Assembly: GCA_001464455.1 (NCBI GenBank)
Contig: LNEI01000016.1
Location: 124,001-188,000 of the forward strand
Reading direction: 5' to 3'
DNA: 64,000 bases
Origin: Acidobacteria bacterium Ga0077534
GTDB lineage: Bacteria; Acidobacteriota; Blastocatellia; Pyrinomonadales; Pyrinomonadaceae
The notes beneath the pieces were generated by a model that saw nothing but the letters and a program-made list of their open reading frames with translations, was not told the origin of the DNA and did not search any database. Position numbers and translations under genes: made by a program. Positions within the stretch are counted from its first letter, which is position 1, and each line of letters begins with the position of its first letter. Positions 33,790-58,341 of the stretch are shown here, one piece after another.

Positions 33790-35562
33790 ATGAAACGATG
33801 CCCTGAATGCGGTCGCGAATACGACAATACGATGATGTTCTGTCTCGATGACGGAACGGAGTTGCTCTATGGCCCGGCGAGGTCAGTACCACCTGCGGTT
33901 TCGGGTGGGGCTTTGTCCTCTGACGACGAGCCACAAACCGCGATCTTGCACTCGACAGCCGCCCCGGGTGAAGCTCCGACTCGTGCGCAGATTCATACTA
34001 CTGAGCAGACTGCTGTTTTGCCTCGTGGAGCGGAGGCGGAGCCTCGGGAATCTTTGGGTGGCCGGTCCGAGAAGCATAGCTTCTCCGCAAATAGAGCGGC
34101 GAAGCCGCTGGTGGTAGTCGTCGCAGCCGTGATTCTTCTTGTCGGAGGGTTCTTTGGCTATCGATATTTTTCATCGGCCAATTCGAAACAGATCGAATCG
34201 ATCGCCGTCATGCCGTTTCTCAATGAGAGCGGCAATTCCGACGTTGAGTATCTGTCAGATGGCCTGACTGAGACGATCATCAAGAACCTTTCACAGTTAG
34301 CAAACCTGAAAGTTAAGCCGCGTTCGTCCGTGTTTCGTTACAAGGGCCGTGAGGCTGATATGCAGGTTATTGGTCGCGAGCTACAGGTACAAGCCATTTT
34401 AACCGGCCGGGTTATTCAGCGTGGACCGGACATTTCTCTTTTTGTGGAGCTGATAGACATTGGGTCGGACAGGGTGGTATGGAGCGAGCAATACAGCCGA
34501 AGACAAACCGACCTGGTTTCCCTCGAGCACGATGTCGCCCGCGACGTCACGGGCAAACTGAGCCTCAAATTATCAGGTGCCGAGGAGCAAAAGCTGCTGA
34601 AGAAATATACGTTAAATCCCGAGGCATATCAGCTATATCTCCGAGGTCGACATGAATGGAACAAGTTTTCACTCGAAGGTCTAACGAGAAGCATCACTTT
34701 TTTCGAACGCGCCATCCAGATAGACCCGAACTATGCTCTGGCTTACTCGGGGCTTGCGGATTCGTATGTAAATTTAGGCGTCGACTTCGTATCACCGAAA
34801 GAGACGATGCCCAAGGCAAGGAACGCGGCTCTAAAAGCCATTTCATTGGACGATTCGCTCGCGGAGGCTCATAGTTCGCTAGGGTCTTATAAGCTGTTCT
34901 ACGAATGGGACACGCAGGGAGCCGAGCAAGATTATCGTAAGGCGATAGCTCTTGACCCCAATTACGCGAACGCACGTCATTTCTATAGCCATTGCCTTCA
35001 GTTCTCGGGCCGGGAAGCCGAAGCATTAGTCGAGATGAAAATGGCGGTGGAGTTAGAGCCACTTTCTACCCTGAACAACGCAGAGCTTGGCTGGGCCTAC
35101 TACCTCGCCCGAAAGTACGACATGTCCATTGAGCAATCCCAGAAGACGCTCGATCTGGACCCAGGATTTGCCTACGGCCATTTTGTGCTCGGACTGGCGT
35201 ACAACGCAAAAGGTATGTATCCGGAAGCACGTACCTCGCTTGAGAAGGGGCTAGTGTTGGCACCGGATTGGCTTGAGATGCAAGGTTTGTTGGCGTACAC
35301 CAATGCCGCCGAAGGGGAACGTACGAAAGCCCAGGACATTCTATCGAAAGCTCTAAAGGCGTCTGAAGGCCGCTATATAAATGAGGTCATCGTCGCGTCG
35401 GTATACTCGGCACTTAATGATCAAGAGCAGGCCATGGTTTGGTTGGAACGGGGGTATCAGAACCGGTGTTCGTGGATGAAATGGATCGGGATCGAGCCGG
35501 CGCTGGATAAACTACGCCCAGACCCAAGGTTTCAAGCTTTGGCCCGGCGGGTAGGAACCTGA
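33790..35562 (+). CDS. zinc-ribbon-like / TM / TolB-like / TPR protein, array copy 3
   Basis: 590 aa; MKRCPECGREYDNTMMFCLDDG; SVPPAVSGGA insert; GEAPTRAQI; SEKHSFSANRAAKP insert; TolB-like; TPR. Confidence 0.85.
   Translation: MKRCPECGREYDNTMMFCLDDGTELLYGPARSVPPAVSGGALSSDDEPQTAILHSTAAPGEAPTRAQIHTTEQTAVLPRGAEAEPRESLGGRSEKHSFSANRAAKPLVVVVAAVILLVGGFFGYRYFSSANSKQIESIAVMPFLNESGNSDVEYLSDGLTETIIKNLSQLANLKVKPRSSVFRYKGREADMQVIGRELQVQAILTGRVIQRGPDISLFVELIDIGSDRVVWSEQYSRRQTDLVSLEHDVARDVTGKLSLKLSGAEEQKLLKKYTLNPEAYQLYLRGRHEWNKFSLEGLTRSITFFERAIQIDPNYALAYSGLADSYVNLGVDFVSPKETMPKARNAALKAISLDDSLAEAHSSLGSYKLFYEWDTQGAEQDYRKAIALDPNYANARHFYSHCLQFSGREAEALVEMKMAVELEPLSTLNNAELGWAYYLARKYDMSIEQSQKTLDLDPGFAYGHFVLGLAYNAKGMYPEARTSLEKGLVLAPDWLEMQGLLAYTNAAEGERTKAQDILSKALKASEGRYINEVIVASVYSALNDQEQAMVWLERGYQNRCSWMKWIGIEPALDKLRPDPRFQALARRVGT
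33881..33913 (+). repeat. GTCAGTACC-type intragenic element (copy A)
   Basis: GGTCAGTACCACCTGCGGTTTCGGGTGGGGC inside array copy 3. Confidence 0.75.
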
Positions 35563-35625: not shown

Positions 35626-37365
35626 ATGAAACGATGTCCTGAATGTAGGCGGGATTATTACGACGATACACTGCTGTACTGTCTCGACGATGGCAATGCC
35701 CTGCTCGAAGGGCCGGCTGTGTCGGTACCACCTGCGGTAGCGGGTGGGGCTTTGTCCGGTGACGACGAACCGGCGACGGCGATCTTGCACTCGACGGCTG
35801 CTCCAGGCGAGGCTCCGACCCGGGCGCAGATACAGATGACAGACCAGACGGCGGTCTTGCCGACTGGCACGGGCGATGTTAGAGCGAACAGGAGTTTTGA
35901 TAAACGGCTGCTGTTTGCTCCAGTGGTTATCGCGGTCATCATACTCGGAGGATTCTTTGGCTATCGGTATATCACTCAGGCAAAACAGATCGACTCGATC
36001 GCTGTGATGCCGTTTGTCAACGAGAGCAACAATGAAGATGTCGAATATTTGAGCGATGGAATGACCGAGACGCTCATCAATAGTCTGTCGAAAATTCCAA
36101 ATCTGAATGTTAAGCCGCGCTCATCCGTCTTTCGGTACAAAGGTAAAGAGACCAGTCAGCAGACTATCGCCAAAGAGTTGAACGTCCAAGCCATTTTGAG
36201 CGGGCGTGTGGTTCAGCGTGGTGAGCAGCTGATCTTGAGTTTGGAACTCGTCGATCCACAAAGAGACGTCTTGCTTTGGTCTGAGCAGTATACACGCAAA
36301 CAATCAGACCTTATTTCGTTACAAAGCGAGATCGCCCGCGATGTTTCTACTAAACTGCGATCGAAATTGTCAGGTGCCGACGTTGCCAGAGTTGAAAAAA
36401 GCTATACCGCCGATCCTGAAGCCTACCAACTTTATTTGAAAGGCCGCTATGCATGGAATAAGCGAACCGGTCCCGCGATCAAGCAGGCATCTGAACTTTT
36501 CAGACAGGCAATTGAGAGGGACCCGAACTATGCACTCGCCTATTCAGGATTAGCTGAGGCCTACGTTATTTTTTCGAGCTATGGCGTGGCATTGGCGAAC
36601 GACAGCATGCCGCAGGCAAAGGCGTCGGCTTTACGGGCGTTAGAACTGGACGAAAGCCTTGCGGAAGCTCACACCGCCCTCGCTGAGTATCTTGTCCACT
36701 ATGAATGTGACCGCGTCGGGTCGGAACGTGAGTTTCGTCGTGCGATCGAGCTAAATCCGAAGTATCCGACTGCCCGTCAGTGGCTGGGGAATTTGCTCGC
36801 GTCCGTCAAGCGGTTTGATGATGGCCTGATCGAGCTGAAACGTGCCGAGGAACTTGATCCGCTTTCGGCAATCATTGCCTTAAATGTAGGAGATACGTTA
36901 GTCGCCGGTCGGCGTTACGATGAAGGAATAGCCGCTTATAAACGTGTGCTTTCTACCAATCCCGATTTTGCATTAGGGCACTCGACTCTGGGATTGGTCT
37001 ACGGCCTAAAAGGTATGTATCGCGAGGCATTAGACGAAACGCGCAGAGCTTTCGAATTGGATCCTGACCCGTCAACAAAAGGATACATAGGACTATGGTT
37101 GGCACGATCAGGCGACCGTGACGGTGCGAGGAAATTGCTCGAAGAGATGAAGCAGGATTCTACCTCCCGTTACGTTCAGAGTTTTTCGATCGGTATGATA
37201 CATATCGGGCTTGGCGAAAAAGCTAACGCATTAGACTGGCTTGAAAAAGAGGTTGCGGAACGCGGCGCAGCCACCCGTTACTACGCTACAGCGGGCGAGC
37301 TCGACGATCTGCGATCCGAGCCGAGATTCAAAGCAATGCTGAAACAGCTAAATTTGCCGGAATAG
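35626..37365 (+). CDS. zinc-ribbon-like / TM / TolB-like / TPR protein, array copy 4
   Basis: ORF 35599..37365; conserved start MKRCPECRRDYYDD at 35626; same architecture. Confidence 0.85.
   Translation: MKRCPECRRDYYDDTLLYCLDDGNALLEGPAVSVPPAVAGGALSGDDEPATAILHSTAAPGEAPTRAQIQMTDQTAVLPTGTGDVRANRSFDKRLLFAPVVIAVIILGGFFGYRYITQAKQIDSIAVMPFVNESNNEDVEYLSDGMTETLINSLSKIPNLNVKPRSSVFRYKGKETSQQTIAKELNVQAILSGRVVQRGEQLILSLELVDPQRDVLLWSEQYTRKQSDLISLQSEIARDVSTKLRSKLSGADVARVEKSYTADPEAYQLYLKGRYAWNKRTGPAIKQASELFRQAIERDPNYALAYSGLAEAYVIFSSYGVALANDSMPQAKASALRALELDESLAEAHTALAEYLVHYECDRVGSEREFRRAIELNPKYPTARQWLGNLLASVKRFDDGLIELKRAEELDPLSAIIALNVGDTLVAGRRYDEGIAAYKRVLSTNPDFALGHSTLGLVYGLKGMYREALDETRRAFELDPDPSTKGYIGLWLARSGDRDGARKLLEEMKQDSTSRYVQSFSIGMIHIGLGEKANALDWLEKEVAERGAATRYYATAGELDDLRSEPRFKAMLKQLNLPE
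35721..35750 (+). repeat. GTCAGTACC-type intragenic element (copy B)
   Basis: GTCGGTACCACCTGCGGTAGCGGGTGGGGC inside array copy 4. Confidence 0.75.
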
Positions 37366-37371
37366 AATGTT

Positions 37372-39171
37372 ATGAAACGATGCCCTGAATGTGGTCGGGA
37401 TTACAATGACGATTCGATGAGCTTCTGTCTGGATGACGGCTCCGAACTGCTCTTTGGCCCGGCATCCGGGTCAGAACCGGGAGCGATAGCGACTGGGTTC
37501 CCCGGCGACGAGCCGCAAACCGCGATATTGCACTCGACCGCTGCTCCTGGCGAAGCTCCGACTCGTGCACAGATCCTTACTACGGAACAGACTGCTGTTT
37601 TGCCTCGCGGAGTGGAGACGGAGCCTCGGGAGAGTTTAAGTGGGCTTTCGGAAAAGCACAGCTTTTCCGTACATCGAGCGGCAAAGCCGCTGATCGCGGT
37701 TGCCGTCGCAGTTGTTGTTTTGATCGGCGGATTCTTCGGCTACAAATATTTCGCTCCAACGAAACAAATCGAATCGATCGCCGTGATGCCGTTTGTGAAT
37801 GAGAGCGGGAATTCGGATGTTGAGTACTTGAGCGATGGAATGACGGAGACGCTAATAAGTAGTTTGTCGAATATTCCTAATTTGTCGGTCAAGGCAAGAA
37901 GCACGGTCTTTTATTACAAGGGCAAAGAGGCTTCGCCGAAGAAGATCGGGGAAGAATTGAAGGTGCAAGCGGTCTTACTGGGCAGAGTTTCCCAACGCGG
38001 CGATGATCTGAAATTGAGCCTGGAACTCGTCAACACCGAGACTCAAGACGTCATCTGGAGCGAGCAGTATAATCGCAAACAATCCGACCTCGTTTCATTG
38101 CAGAGCGAGATCGCCAAAACCGTTTCGGATAAACTTCATTCGAAACTAACGGCGACCGAACAGGAGCGAGTCAGCAAAACTAACACGACCAGCTCCGAGG
38201 CACAGCAGCTTTACCTAAAAGGGCGTTTTCATTGGAACAAACGAAAGACCGAAGACTTTCAAAAAGCCAGAGAGTATTTCCAGCAAGCGATCGCTGCTGA
38301 CCCGAGGTACGCACTCGCATACGCAGGACTCTCCGACACTTTGGCATTGATGCCCTATTACGGTGCATTCAGGCCAAGCGAATATATGCCGCTTGCAAAA
38401 CAGGCGGTACAAAAAGCCCTCGAAATTGACCCAAATCTAGCAGAAGCACATGCTTCGCTCGGTCAGATCTTGACCAACTATGATTATGATCTCAAAGGTG
38501 CTGAGAGAGAGCTAAAGAGAGCGATCGAACTCAACCCAAAGTATCCGTCTGCTTATCAGTGGCTTGCAGAGGTATACCATTTTTCGGGAAATGGCGACCA
38601 AGCGCTATCGGAGATAAATAAAGCTATTGAACTTGACCCGTTGTCGATGGTCATAAATAACCAAAAAGGTAGAGTGATTGAACTTGGAGGCAAGCGGGAC
38701 GAAGCAATTGCTCAGTTTAAGAAAACCATTGAGTTGTTTCCGGACGCACCGAGTCCTCGCAATAACCTCGCCGACGTTTATGAAGCCAAGGGCATGTATT
38801 CCGAGGCCGTTGAGCAACGCCTTATCCAGATCAAACTACTCTTTGGCGTTAGCCCGGAAAACCTTAAAGACCTCCAGCTAGCTTATGAAAAAGACGGTTA
38901 TAAGGGCTTTGTGCAAAAGCAAATAGACATTCAACTGGACAGTCAGAGATCAAGTCTGGAGAAGGATAAAAATGCTTATCTACCGGCCTTTCGAATTGCG
39001 GAAACCTATGCCCGTGGTCAGGACAAAGATAAAACGTTTGAATACCTAAACAAAGCGTATGATCAACGCGAACCACAGATCGCAGAACTCAAAATTCGAT
39101 TACCATTTGTTTTTCTGCGAGACGACCCGCGATTTAAGGAATTGGTCAGGAAAGTTGGATTTCCAGAATAG
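37372..39171 (+). CDS. zinc-ribbon-like / TM / TolB-like / TPR protein, array copy 5
   Basis: 599 aa; MKRCPECGRDYNDDSMSFCLDDG; same architecture; ends DDPRFKELVRKVGFPE. Confidence 0.85.
   Translation: MKRCPECGRDYNDDSMSFCLDDGSELLFGPASGSEPGAIATGFPGDEPQTAILHSTAAPGEAPTRAQILTTEQTAVLPRGVETEPRESLSGLSEKHSFSVHRAAKPLIAVAVAVVVLIGGFFGYKYFAPTKQIESIAVMPFVNESGNSDVEYLSDGMTETLISSLSNIPNLSVKARSTVFYYKGKEASPKKIGEELKVQAVLLGRVSQRGDDLKLSLELVNTETQDVIWSEQYNRKQSDLVSLQSEIAKTVSDKLHSKLTATEQERVSKTNTTSSEAQQLYLKGRFHWNKRKTEDFQKAREYFQQAIAADPRYALAYAGLSDTLALMPYYGAFRPSEYMPLAKQAVQKALEIDPNLAEAHASLGQILTNYDYDLKGAERELKRAIELNPKYPSAYQWLAEVYHFSGNGDQALSEINKAIELDPLSMVINNQKGRVIELGGKRDEAIAQFKKTIELFPDAPSPRNNLADVYEAKGMYSEAVEQRLIQIKLLFGVSPENLKDLQLAYEKDGYKGFVQKQIDIQLDSQRSSLEKDKNAYLPAFRIAETYARGQDKDKTFEYLNKAYDQREPQIAELKIRLPFVFLRDDPRFKELVRKVGFPE
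37470..37498 (+). repeat. GTCAGAACC-type intragenic element (copy F)
   Basis: GTCAGAACCGGGAGCGATAGCGACTGGGT inside array copy 5. Confidence 0.65.
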
Positions 39172-39181
39172 AATTTAGCCT

Positions 39182-40960
39182 ATGAAACGATGCCCTGAAT
39201 GCGGGAGAGACTACAACGACGATTCGATGAGCTTCTGTCTCGACGACGGCTCCGAATTGCTCTTCGGCCCGGCCGTGTCAGTACCACCTGCGGTAGCGGG
39301 TGGGGCTTTGTCTGGCGACTACGAACCGGCTACGGCGATCCTGCACTCGACGGCTGCTCCGGGCGAAACTCCGACTCGTGCTCAGATTCTGACTACACAG
39401 GAGACGGCGATTTTGCCGCGTGGAGCGGAGGCGGAGCCTCGGGGATCTTTGGGTGGCCTCCCGGAGAAGCAGAGCTTCTCCGCAAATAGGGCGGCCAAGC
39501 CGCTGACGGCGTTGGTTGTGGCGGTTTTAATTCTCGTTGGCGGGTTCTTTGGTTATCGATATATCGGCATTGGCGGATCGGGGGCGATCAATTCCATCGC
39601 CGTGATGCCGTTTGAGAATAGGAATTCGGATGCCGACACGGATTATTTGTCTGACGGTTTGGCGGAATCGGTGATCTTTCGGCTGACGCAGATCCCTGAT
39701 CTGCGTGTCAGCCCGACGAGTTCGGTGATGCGTTACAAGGGGAAGGAGACTGATATTGCCAAGATCGCCTCCGAACTTGGCGTAGATGCGGTGATGACCG
39801 GACGCCTCACCAAGCGGGGCGACAATCTGAATATCACGGTCGAGCTGGTGGATGCCCGAACCAACAAGTCGCTGTGGGGCGAACAGTATGAACGGAAGCT
39901 TTCGGAATTGCTGACCACCCAACGCGAGATGGTCGCCGAGATCGTGGGCAAACTGCAGCTAAAACTGTCGGGTGAAAGCGAGCAAAAGCTGGCGAAAAAA
40001 TACACCAACAATGACGAGGCCTATCAGCTTTATCTTAGGGGCCAGTATCATCTAGCCAAACGAACAAAAGACGACATTTACAAGGCCATTGATTACTACG
40101 AGCAGTCGATAAAGCTTGATCCCAACTTTGCCCTGGCCTACGCTGGTCTGAGCTATGCATACCAATTAGGGATGGGAAATTCCTTCTTTTTATTTTCCAT
40201 GGAAGAGGGTCTAAAGAGGGCAAAGGATGCCGCCGTCAGGGCGGCAGTGATAGACCCGAATCTGGCCGAGGCACGCACAGTCATCGGAATATCGCTTTCG
40301 AAGGAATTGAAATGGCCCGAAGCTGAGCGTGAATACAGGAAGGCTCTAGAGATCGATCCAAAAAACGCAGGCTCACATTACCAGTACGGCATTTTCCTCC
40401 AGTACTTCGGCCGCACCGGTGACTCGATCCGTGAGATCAAAACTGCCGTCGAATTGGATCCCCAATCTTTGATAATGCAGGCAAACCTCGCCGGGGCGCA
40501 TCTCTTTGACAGGCAAAGCGAATTGGGATTGGACTTGGCAAAGAAAGCTTTCGACCTAGATCCTAACTTTATTTTGTGCCGGTCTTGGCTTGCTTATGCC
40601 TACTGTGTGAATAAGAAATATGCCGAAGCGATCGAGCTTATAGACGCAGCGCCTCGAGACGAGGTTTCTCAGCGATTATTTGCTCGTCTTCGTGGATACG
40701 CCTTAGCAAAAAGCGGACGCCGTAGTGAGGCTGAATCGATTCTCGCAAAATACAGTTCAGATCCGACTTTCTCAGACTCGTCAAATGCCGCCACGATTTT
40801 TGGAGCACTTGGCGACAAGGACAAGGCATTTGCCGCGCTAGAGAAAGGTTTTGCCGCGAAAGAGCAATTGTCGCGAATAAAGGTCGATCCGCTTTTCGAC
40901 GATCTCCGTGACGACCCGCGATTTAAGGATCTCCTGAGACGGATGAATCTGACGGAGTAG
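39182..40960 (+). CDS. zinc-ribbon-like / TM / TolB-like / TPR protein, array copy 6
   Basis: 592 aa; same architecture; ends DDPRFKDLLRRMNLTE. Confidence 0.85.
   Translation: MKRCPECGRDYNDDSMSFCLDDGSELLFGPAVSVPPAVAGGALSGDYEPATAILHSTAAPGETPTRAQILTTQETAILPRGAEAEPRGSLGGLPEKQSFSANRAAKPLTALVVAVLILVGGFFGYRYIGIGGSGAINSIAVMPFENRNSDADTDYLSDGLAESVIFRLTQIPDLRVSPTSSVMRYKGKETDIAKIASELGVDAVMTGRLTKRGDNLNITVELVDARTNKSLWGEQYERKLSELLTTQREMVAEIVGKLQLKLSGESEQKLAKKYTNNDEAYQLYLRGQYHLAKRTKDDIYKAIDYYEQSIKLDPNFALAYAGLSYAYQLGMGNSFFLFSMEEGLKRAKDAAVRAAVIDPNLAEARTVIGISLSKELKWPEAEREYRKALEIDPKNAGSHYQYGIFLQYFGRTGDSIREIKTAVELDPQSLIMQANLAGAHLFDRQSELGLDLAKKAFDLDPNFILCRSWLAYAYCVNKKYAEAIELIDAAPRDEVSQRLFARLRGYALAKSGRRSEAESILAKYSSDPTFSDSSNAATIFGALGDKDKAFAALEKGFAAKEQLSRIKVDPLFDDLRDDPRFKDLLRRMNLTE
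39277..39306 (+). repeat. GTCAGTACC-type intragenic element (copy C)
   Basis: GTCAGTACCACCTGCGGTAGCGGGTGGGGC inside array copy 6. Confidence 0.75.
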
Positions 40961-56790: not shown

Positions 56791-58101
56791 CTAAACGGTG
56801 CCTCTTGCGGTAGCGTTTTCTGCAATGTGTCCCAAAGCCTCCACAAACTTATTAAACCCTGCGAACCGCTCATCCTTGGTAAATCCTCTGACGTATCTTG
56901 CGTAGATCTGCTGGGCGATGACGGCGATCTTGAAGGTGCCGAAGGTGTAGTAGAAGAGCATGTCCGGCAGTTTGCGTCCCAAGATTTCTTCGTACATTTC
57001 GACGAGTTCGGCCCGTGAAATATTTTCCATCAGCACTCGCGGGTTGAAGGGCATATTTAGCATTTCCTCGCCTGCGTCGTTATCCATCCAGTAGCCGAGC
57101 GTGGTGCCCAGGTCCATTAGCGGGTCGCCGATGGTGACCATTTCCCAATCGAGCACGGCGGTTATGCGTCCCAGATCGTTTGGGTCGAGCATGACGTTGT
57201 CGAATTTGTAATCGTTGTGGATCAGCGACGCGCCCGATTCCGGCGGGATGTTCGCGTTTAGCCAGATGATCGATTTTTCGAGTGCGTCGTGATCGTGGGT
57301 CTTGGCGGCGAAGTAGCGTTTCGTCCAGCCTTCGACCTGTCGGCGGTTGTAGCCTTCGATGCGTCCCAAAGTTTCGAGGCCCGCTTTTGGGAGATCTAGG
57401 GTGTGGAGTTTCACTAGGTTGTTGATGAAAGTTTGGCAGATGCTCCGACGCGCTGTTTGTGAGGTTTCGAGGTCGTGCGGCTTGACTGCCCCACCCGCTA
57501 CAGAAGCCGGTACTGACGCGTCTTGCGTCCCAGAACTGATTGTTGAATCTGGCGCGTCGGAGCCCTTACTATGTGCGGGCTTCTGCATCGATGCGGGATC
57601 GTGCGTCCCAGGAATGCGGCCGCGGATGATCAGGCCGTGGCGGCGCTCCATTAGGTAGAATTCGGAACCGATGACCGCGTCGTTGTCGCAGAATAGCAGC
57701 GGCTTTGGTGCGGGTGCGTAGACTTTCGACAGTTTAGTTAGCACGTCGAATTCGCGACGCATGTCGTGGGCCGACTTGACTGTGTTGCCAAACGGCGGTC
57801 GGCGGAGCACGTATTCTTGCGTCTCAGGGTGCGGGTTGGGCGTATCGCCATTGCTTACGAGCGTGCTTTCGTATTTGGTTCGCACAGGGCACTCGTCCGC
57901 ACCTTCACGATCCCCGGTCACTACCGTTCCCGGTACTGACTCGGGGCGTCCGATCCGCACGAGGTACGTCAGATTTGAGCTGCCGCCGGGGAATTGTTCG
58001 ATCTCGATCTGGCCGTGCGTTCCAAGCTCGCCTTCCAGGAAAGCACGCAGCCGTTCGATATCGATCTCTTCACCCTTTCTTACCAGTTTCGTTTCACCCA
58101 T
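56791..58101 (-). CDS. phosphotransferase family protein (APH/ACAD10-like)
   Basis: Likely start MGETKLVRKGEEIDIERL at 58101; EQFPGGSSNLTYLVRIG, LIHNDYKFDNVMLDP, AVLDWEMVTIGDPLMDLG; contains two unusual low-complexity insertions. Confidence 0.85.
   Translation of the reverse strand: MGETKLVRKGEEIDIERLRAFLEGELGTHGQIEIEQFPGGSSNLTYLVRIGRPESVPGTVVTGDREGADECPVRTKYESTLVSNGDTPNPHPETQEYVLRRPPFGNTVKSAHDMRREFDVLTKLSKVYAPAPKPLLFCDNDAVIGSEFYLMERRHGLIIRGRIPGTHDPASMQKPAHSKGSDAPDSTISSGTQDASVPASVAGGAVKPHDLETSQTARRSICQTFINNLVKLHTLDLPKAGLETLGRIEGYNRRQVEGWTKRYFAAKTHDHDALEKSIIWLNANIPPESGASLIHNDYKFDNVMLDPNDLGRITAVLDWEMVTIGDPLMDLGTTLGYWMDNDAGEEMLNMPFNPRVLMENISRAELVEMYEEILGRKLPDMLFYYTFGTFKIAVIAQQIYARYVRGFTKDERFAGFNKFVEALGHIAENATARGTV
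57488..57517 (-). repeat. GTCAGTACC-type intragenic element (copy D)
   Basis: Reverse strand GTCAGTACCGGCTTCTGTAGCGGGTGGGGC; 26/30 identical to copy C. Confidence 0.75.
57914..57940 (-). repeat. GTCAGTACC-type intragenic element (copy E)
   Basis: Reverse strand GTCAGTACCGGGAACGGTAGTGACCGG. Confidence 0.7.
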
Positions 58102-58241
58102 ATCATCGCCCGCCGTCCCCCGCCAATAGCAAACCGATAATGCCAGAAGATAACCCGCTTCCGCAAACGCCTGAAAACACCACGATCTCGCCCCCGAAAG
58201 ACCGCCGCTGAACCTATAGATAAAATGCCAAATATCCACTC

Positions 58242-58260
58242 TGTGAGAAAGTGTCTCACA
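58242..58260. promoter_or_regulatory. operator-like inverted repeat TGTGAGA-N5-TCTCACA between divergent genes
   Basis: TGTGAGA AAGTG TCTCACA, perfect 7-bp arms, between starts at 58101 (-) and 58342 (+). Confidence 0.55.
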
Positions 58261-58341
58261 AATAAAACAAAATGTCAAGTCCCGAAATCACTTTTTCTGC
58301 CCGATTTCTTACATTTAGCATCTCGTGGTAATTTTACAGTC

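Follow-up and report, generated by a model that had tools for sequence, protein, structure and literature searches.

The window considered here, a stretch of 64,000 nucleotides from Acidobacteria bacterium Ga0077534, carries an array of paralogous genes, three of which (copies 3, 5 and 6) contain a block of three hairpins (H1, H2 and H3) in the region that encodes a juxtamembrane linker. The features are:

33790–35562, + strand: host gene, array copy 3, encoding 590 aa, with a Cys-rich N-terminus followed by a linker, a single hydrophobic (membrane) segment and TPR repeats
33889–33908, + strand: copy-3 linker repeat of the CCACCTGCGGTAGCGGGTGG type, a palindromic family unrelated to the three-hairpin element; reads PPAVSGG
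34033–34109, + strand: full three-hairpin palindromic element of copy 3, in-frame insert in the juxtamembrane linker
34033–34045, + strand: H1 of copy 3, GAGGC-GGA-GCCTC, reads EAEP; the same stem and loop lies beside the stop codon of a transposase (RAYT) gene on contig C19 of the same genome
34069–34085, + strand: H2 of copy 3, GAGAAGC-ATA-GCTTCTC, reads EKHSFS; dispersed genus-wide
34096–34108, + strand: H3 of copy 3, GCGGC-GAA-GCCGC, reads RAAKP; the extended form AGCGGC...GCCGCT spans 34095–34109
35728–35747, + strand: CCACCTGCGGTAGCGGGTGG-type repeat in the linker of array copy 4, reads PPAVAGG
37372–39171, + strand: host gene, array copy 5
37615–37690, + strand: element of copy 5 (H1 37615–37627, broken; H2 37650–37668; H3 37678–37690)
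39182–40960, + strand: host gene, array copy 6
39284–39303, + strand: CCACCTGCGGTAGCGGGTGG-type repeat in the linker of copy 6, reads PPAVAGG
39428–39503, + strand: element of copy 6 (H1 39428–39440; H2 39463–39481; H3 39491–39503)

Direct reading confirmed the three hairpins that the first-pass annotation had reported in copy 3, their recurrence in copies 5 and 6, and the absence of the block from copies 1, 2 and 4, which have a different linker. H2 is GGAAAAGC-ACA-GCTTTTCC in copy 5 and GGAGAAGC-AGA-GCTTCTCC in copy 6. The description needs two corrections: H1, intact in copy 6, is mispaired in copy 5 (GAGAC/GCCTC, a single A.C mismatch), and the outermost H2 pair of copy 3 is broken (C.C). 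The reported alteration of both arms of the copy-5 H2 with pairing kept is genuine: GAG is changed to GAA and TTC to TTT, both at the third codon position and both synonymous. The element is translated into approximately 26 residues (EAEP...SEKHSFSANRAAKP), the reading frame is identical across all array copies, and in these copies the H1–H2 distance is 22 nt and the loops are 3 nt, without exception.

The CCACCTGCGGTAGCGGGTGG family, which reads SVPPAVAGG, has approximately 60 matches in the source genome, frequently in inverted or tandem groups. A phosphotransferase-like gene on the opposite strand of the window (56791–58278) contains degenerate SVPASVAGG and SVPGTVVTG peptides (at 57430–57560 and approximately 57850–57950), which are possibly old insertions of the CCACCTGCGGTAGCGGGTGG-like kind. 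The array-protein linkers of relatives (loci L128–L161) contain the recurrent peptides SEPGAIATGF, SEPPASAGGQF and GVPPSGG, a recurrence which suggests that more palindromic families may have landed in the same linker. In six genomes (G000, G005, G007, G008, G010 and G020) the domain that follows the membrane helix is near-identical between some cross-species paralogues with differing linkers; such near-identity between species suggests that domains may be exchanged among array genes. Tandem pairs of the three-hairpin element with differing H2 variants occur in the linker of an array protein (L150 on G012:C18, position 2185, reverse strand) and in a DnaE2 (L203 on G012:C14).

Searched with the linker, the source genome yielded the array copies, a paralogue from a different contig, and short hits that cover only H2 and H3 in intergenic-looking stretches. 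The genome search for the hairpin triplet proposed in the first-pass annotation proved fruitful: H2, H3 and the 9 nt between them are present at four further, apparently intergenic sites of the source genome (C9:73536, reverse strand; C9:73662, forward strand; C18:590376; C10:139354, reverse strand), and the full unit was found in approximately 105 distinct copies in the genus, counted outside the array genes at sampled loci. Among 40 genomes of the same class, 15 contain a strict pattern (H2 and the 9 nt that join it to H3), every one of them inside the genus (0/15 outside it), and a broader pattern for the H2 core matches 23 of the 25 genomes of the genus, with one match for a reversed-pattern control. 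Recurrence on this scale exceeds what chance would give. The named relatives of the host protein carry the taxonomy labels Acidobacteria, Chloracidobacterium sp. or Pyrinomonadaceae, which places the genus within Acidobacteriota.

The order of the unit is H1, approximately 21 nt, H2, 9 nt, H3, with an H1-type G+C-rich hairpin no more than 60 nt upstream in 95 of the 105 non-array copies, mostly 19–23 nt away. H2 takes the form of GGAAAAGC, GGAGAAGC, GGAAAGGC or GGCGAAGC with its complement, the commonest variant outside the array being GGAAAAGC, that of array copy 5, and H3 is typically GCGGC-nnn-GCCGC. As the same three-hairpin anatomy is found outside genes, the block in the window represents a complete unit. 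Loops of 2 nt occur in 15/105 non-array copies, whereas all array copies have 3-nt loops; the constancy of these loops and of the 22-nt spacing is what a need to preserve the reading frame would produce. Most relatives are metagenome assemblies. The 105 copies were gathered by a pattern that demands a perfect H2 and are therefore unusable as a measure of decay. H1 alone is not dispersed in the source genome (up to 2 mismatches, outside the array genes), save for one weak match; we rejected it as an independent repeat, since it is nearly confined to the array genes there and elsewhere is a component of the composite unit. Two other candidate identities were dismissed: a known structured RNA, as Rfam gave no family match for the block up to E = 1, and a phage origin, as the block has no match in the phage collection.

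The element is also read through in frame inside proteins unrelated to the array. These are DnaE2 of four relatives (G012, G015, G016 and G004), PriA and a RluA/RluD-type pseudouridine synthase (both in G024), a GltD-type oxidoreductase (G020) and a DNA methylase (G006), and in most of these non-array cases family matches lie on either side of the insert. Element-free linkers exist among the DnaE2 orthologues (e.g. in G022), and the DnaE2 of the source genome has an inverted pair of the CCACCTGCGGTAGCGGGTGG palindromic family in place of the element. Inside these other proteins the element is found in both orientations and in more than one frame, which indicates that the inserted unit is DNA and not a protein domain. 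One could argue that the peptide alone is selected and that codon usage happens to produce hairpins, as the single reading frame in all array copies would allow. Such incidental palindromes are refuted by the intergenic copies, and neither the use of other frames and the other orientation within other proteins nor the special constraint on synonymous sites of the stems (see below) agrees with them, so that we give this explanation practically no credence. The first-pass suggestion that the block was inserted is thus borne out, the block being a mobile palindromic element dispersed in the genus, with neither a target-site duplication nor a fresh insertion seen.

In three relatives (G009, G017 and G012) inverted three-hairpin copies lie on both sides of a gene for a Y1/HUH transposase of the REP-associated tyrosine type (RAYT). 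The cognate RAYT family was traced via these inverted copies and then located in the source genome, at C19:211896–212432, where it is again flanked by hairpins; the downstream H1 (TGAGGC-GGA-GCCTCA) has the stem and loop of array copy 3, and the H2 variants around this intact gene, GGAAAGGC and GGAAGGGC, differ from the in-gene variant. A decayed RAYT end lies approximately 40 nt ahead of the intergenic element at C18:590376. Seven RAYTs of the element-flanked family passed the cut-off of the NCBIfam model REP_Tyr_transpos (NF047646; 2 and 5 in two scans), and a PDB search with the RAYT gave a single weak, irrelevant match. The Y-motif of the element-linked transposases is YIH(L/Q/N)NP, which is class 2-like. 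Ten matches to Y1 transposases were counted across the source genome, and other palindromes border several of them; loci L025, L027, L028, L030 and L031, for instance, have different flanking palindromes such as CCCACGGCCATAGCCGTGGG and CCGTTGCCTTTAGGCAACGG. The first eight transposase loci were rejected as the cognate RAYT because their flanks bear other palindromes. No GTAG/GTGG or CGTC tag was found at the hairpin feet, and GTAG or CGTC occurs near the hairpins in just 8/105 copies; the feet are TAGA, TCGG or TCGA ahead of H3 and mostly xxxC ahead of H2.

Short palindromic repeats in frame within proteins, with dnaE2 and other genes of DNA replication and repair as notable hosts, were described by Di Nocera et al. 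2013 (PMC3733652), where GTAG REP families are linked to RAYTs, Acidobacteria transposases are set apart as TIR-associated (TIRYT), and the Rickettsia palindromic elements (RPE) RPE-4 and RPE-6 are filed with CGTC-type repeats that are not transposase-linked. The element resembles those intragenic REPs in its in-frame location within proteins, DnaE2 included, but they are tagged with GTAG or CGTC and come as lone hairpins, as dimers or in clusters, whereas the element is tagless and a fixed set of three. With REP/RAYT systems (REPtrons, TnpA_REP; PMC2817692, PMC8266576, PMC3116915) it shares dispersed, mostly extragenic, non-autonomous palindromes with inverted copies around a Y1/HUH transposase; it differs in being a three-hairpin composite that lacks the GTAG guide at the hairpin foot, and its cleavage by the RAYT is putative. 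Given the missing GTAG tag, we class it as a variant within the RAYT-REP group and not as a canonical REP. The likeness to RPE, by description, lies in palindromic DNA inserted in frame and translated in many unrelated proteins, here the array proteins, DnaE2, PriA and the RluA/RluD-type, GltD-type and DNA methylase proteins, but RPE belong to unrelated bacteria, and here a RAYT sits between element copies. Class 3 TnpA_Y1 elements of Acidobacteria and Planctomycetes have the Y-motif Y....Q and a CnGA foot (PMC6006769), from which the YIH(L/Q/N)NP transposases and the feet found here differ. REPs in genes including dnaE2, RPE-type coding insertions and RAYT-REP systems are thus already published; the tagless three-hairpin version with stems still paired after insertion is new, and the literature searched yielded no description of such a unit.

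Among 26 in-gene copies, synonymous diversity is 0.14 in the stems (8 sites) vs 0.54 in the flanks (80 sites; p 1.5e-4), and loops and spacers, at 0.55, drift like the flanks, in agreement with the early remark that loops vary while stems persist. The low value of the stems relative to loops and flanks indicates that something beyond the protein keeps them. In the larger alignment on which covariation was to be checked (32 in-gene copies found by protein similarity), H1 and H2 exceeded all 300 shuffles, but H3 showed no covariation in the same test. At pair 4 of H2, 8 copies have G-C and 22 have A-T; at pair 6, A-T is seen in 16 and G-C in 14; and at pair 2 of H1, 21 of 30 copies have A-T and 6 have C-G. 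The covarying pair 6 of H2 alters the encoded amino acid at each arm (K to R together with F to L). On a gene tree of the downstream domain, in which many forks are weakly supported, pair 4 of H2 has six changes per arm, and the independent pairs agree with none discordant, although they are too few for significance. About a third of the in-gene copies have an imperfect H2 stem. The RNA fold of the block is ordinary compared with shuffled sequence (z -0.27) and its minimum-energy structure differs from the three hairpins, whereas the single-stranded DNA fold is better than shuffled and forms hairpins (z -2.1). The first-pass claim of structure beyond protein-level selection therefore stands as regards the constrained synonymous sites and the covariation of H1 and H2, and falls as regards H3, a special RNA fold and specificity for the array; an array-specific RNA element is ruled out by the dispersal and the unremarkable RNA fold.

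These data could mean that the paired state is actively maintained in situ at both synonymous and amino-acid-changing sites, because the folded juxtamembrane coding strand has a function, with the mRNA (or single-stranded DNA) structure doing a job such as slowing translation before the membrane helix and the element being only its source. The quiet stems between drifting loops, the covariation of H1 and H2, the concordant changes of pair 4 and the two-armed amino-acid changes at pair 6 are compatible with such co-option, which we nonetheless consider unlikely: the RNA folding energy is ordinary, H3 does not covary, many H2 stems are imperfect, the block is absent from half the paralogues, identical stem variants exist in mobile copies, and the sign tests are too small for 0.05. 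The fact that GGAAAAGC is the commonest H2 outside the array argues that pairing comes mainly from the element's own hairpins and not from an mRNA function of the host gene.

A process with a somewhat better claim, although we would not favor it at even odds, is exchange, in which gene conversion or renewed insertion brings whole H2–spacer–H3 variants from mobile copies into genes. It is allowed by the H2 variants GGAAAAGC, GGAGAAGC, GGAAAGGC and GGCGAAGC being common to in-gene and mobile copies and by the H2 variant being tied to the type of the 9-nt spacer (mobile copies p 5e-8; genes weakly, p 0.08), and differing H2 variants in array genes with near-identical downstream domains fit it as well. 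Many in-gene copies, however, have a related H1–H2 spacer of the GGGAATCTTTGGGTGGGCTTTC type whereas mobile spacers are varied, which makes replacement of the whole element unlikely for those copies, and spacer GCTCGGCGA is nearly gene-confined, yet one copy with it has a two-armed H2 change. Such changes in situ, amino-acid-changing ones included, could instead arise by quasipalindrome-associated template switching, a process known in bacteria (PMC7202029), in which a hairpin strand templates itself during replication, so that a mutation in either arm is carried over to its partner. The folding of the block as single-stranded DNA is in line with this; broken stems persist in several copies and H3 shows no such pattern, and we regard template switching as conceivable but rather doubtful.

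Whatever maintains the stems, the dispersal of the unit and the inverted copies that flank RAYT genes lead us to conclude, with high confidence, that the block is an in-frame insertion of a RAYT-associated, non-autonomous palindromic three-hairpin element of approximately 77 nt. On the other side stand the missing tag, the lack of any observed target-site duplication or fresh insertion, the near-absence of lone H1 outside the array genes of the source genome and the differing H2 variants around its intact RAYT gene. The dispersal, the same anatomy outside genes, the RAYT-flanking copies and the in-frame insertions in unrelated proteins are direct observations. The element would belong to those that REP-associated tyrosine transposases (RAYT/TnpA_REP, HUH-type Y1) mobilize in single-stranded form, and the RAYT presumably moves it. 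An ancestral copy would have inserted without a frameshift into the flexible linker of one paralogue, directly ahead of the membrane helix, and gene duplication would then have spread it among the array paralogues, so that insertion into the array was probably for the most part one ancestral event and the encoded peptide is probably a tolerated passenger. Stem pairing in the gene copies would derive primarily from the element. That the stems have stayed paired since insertion calls for an additional cause, which may be exchange, hairpin-templated mutation or selection.

How palindromic elements enter genes in frame is a matter of debate, and these observations connect such insertions with a transposase family that can be identified in the genomes that carry them, a single element being seen between genes, flanking its transposase and within at least six kinds of protein. 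Its in-gene copies make it possible to ask what keeps stems paired in translated DNA, be it selection, copying between repeats or hairpin-templated mutation. They also call for caution, as covariation in coding regions can be due to mobile palindromes and not to a functional structure of the mRNA.
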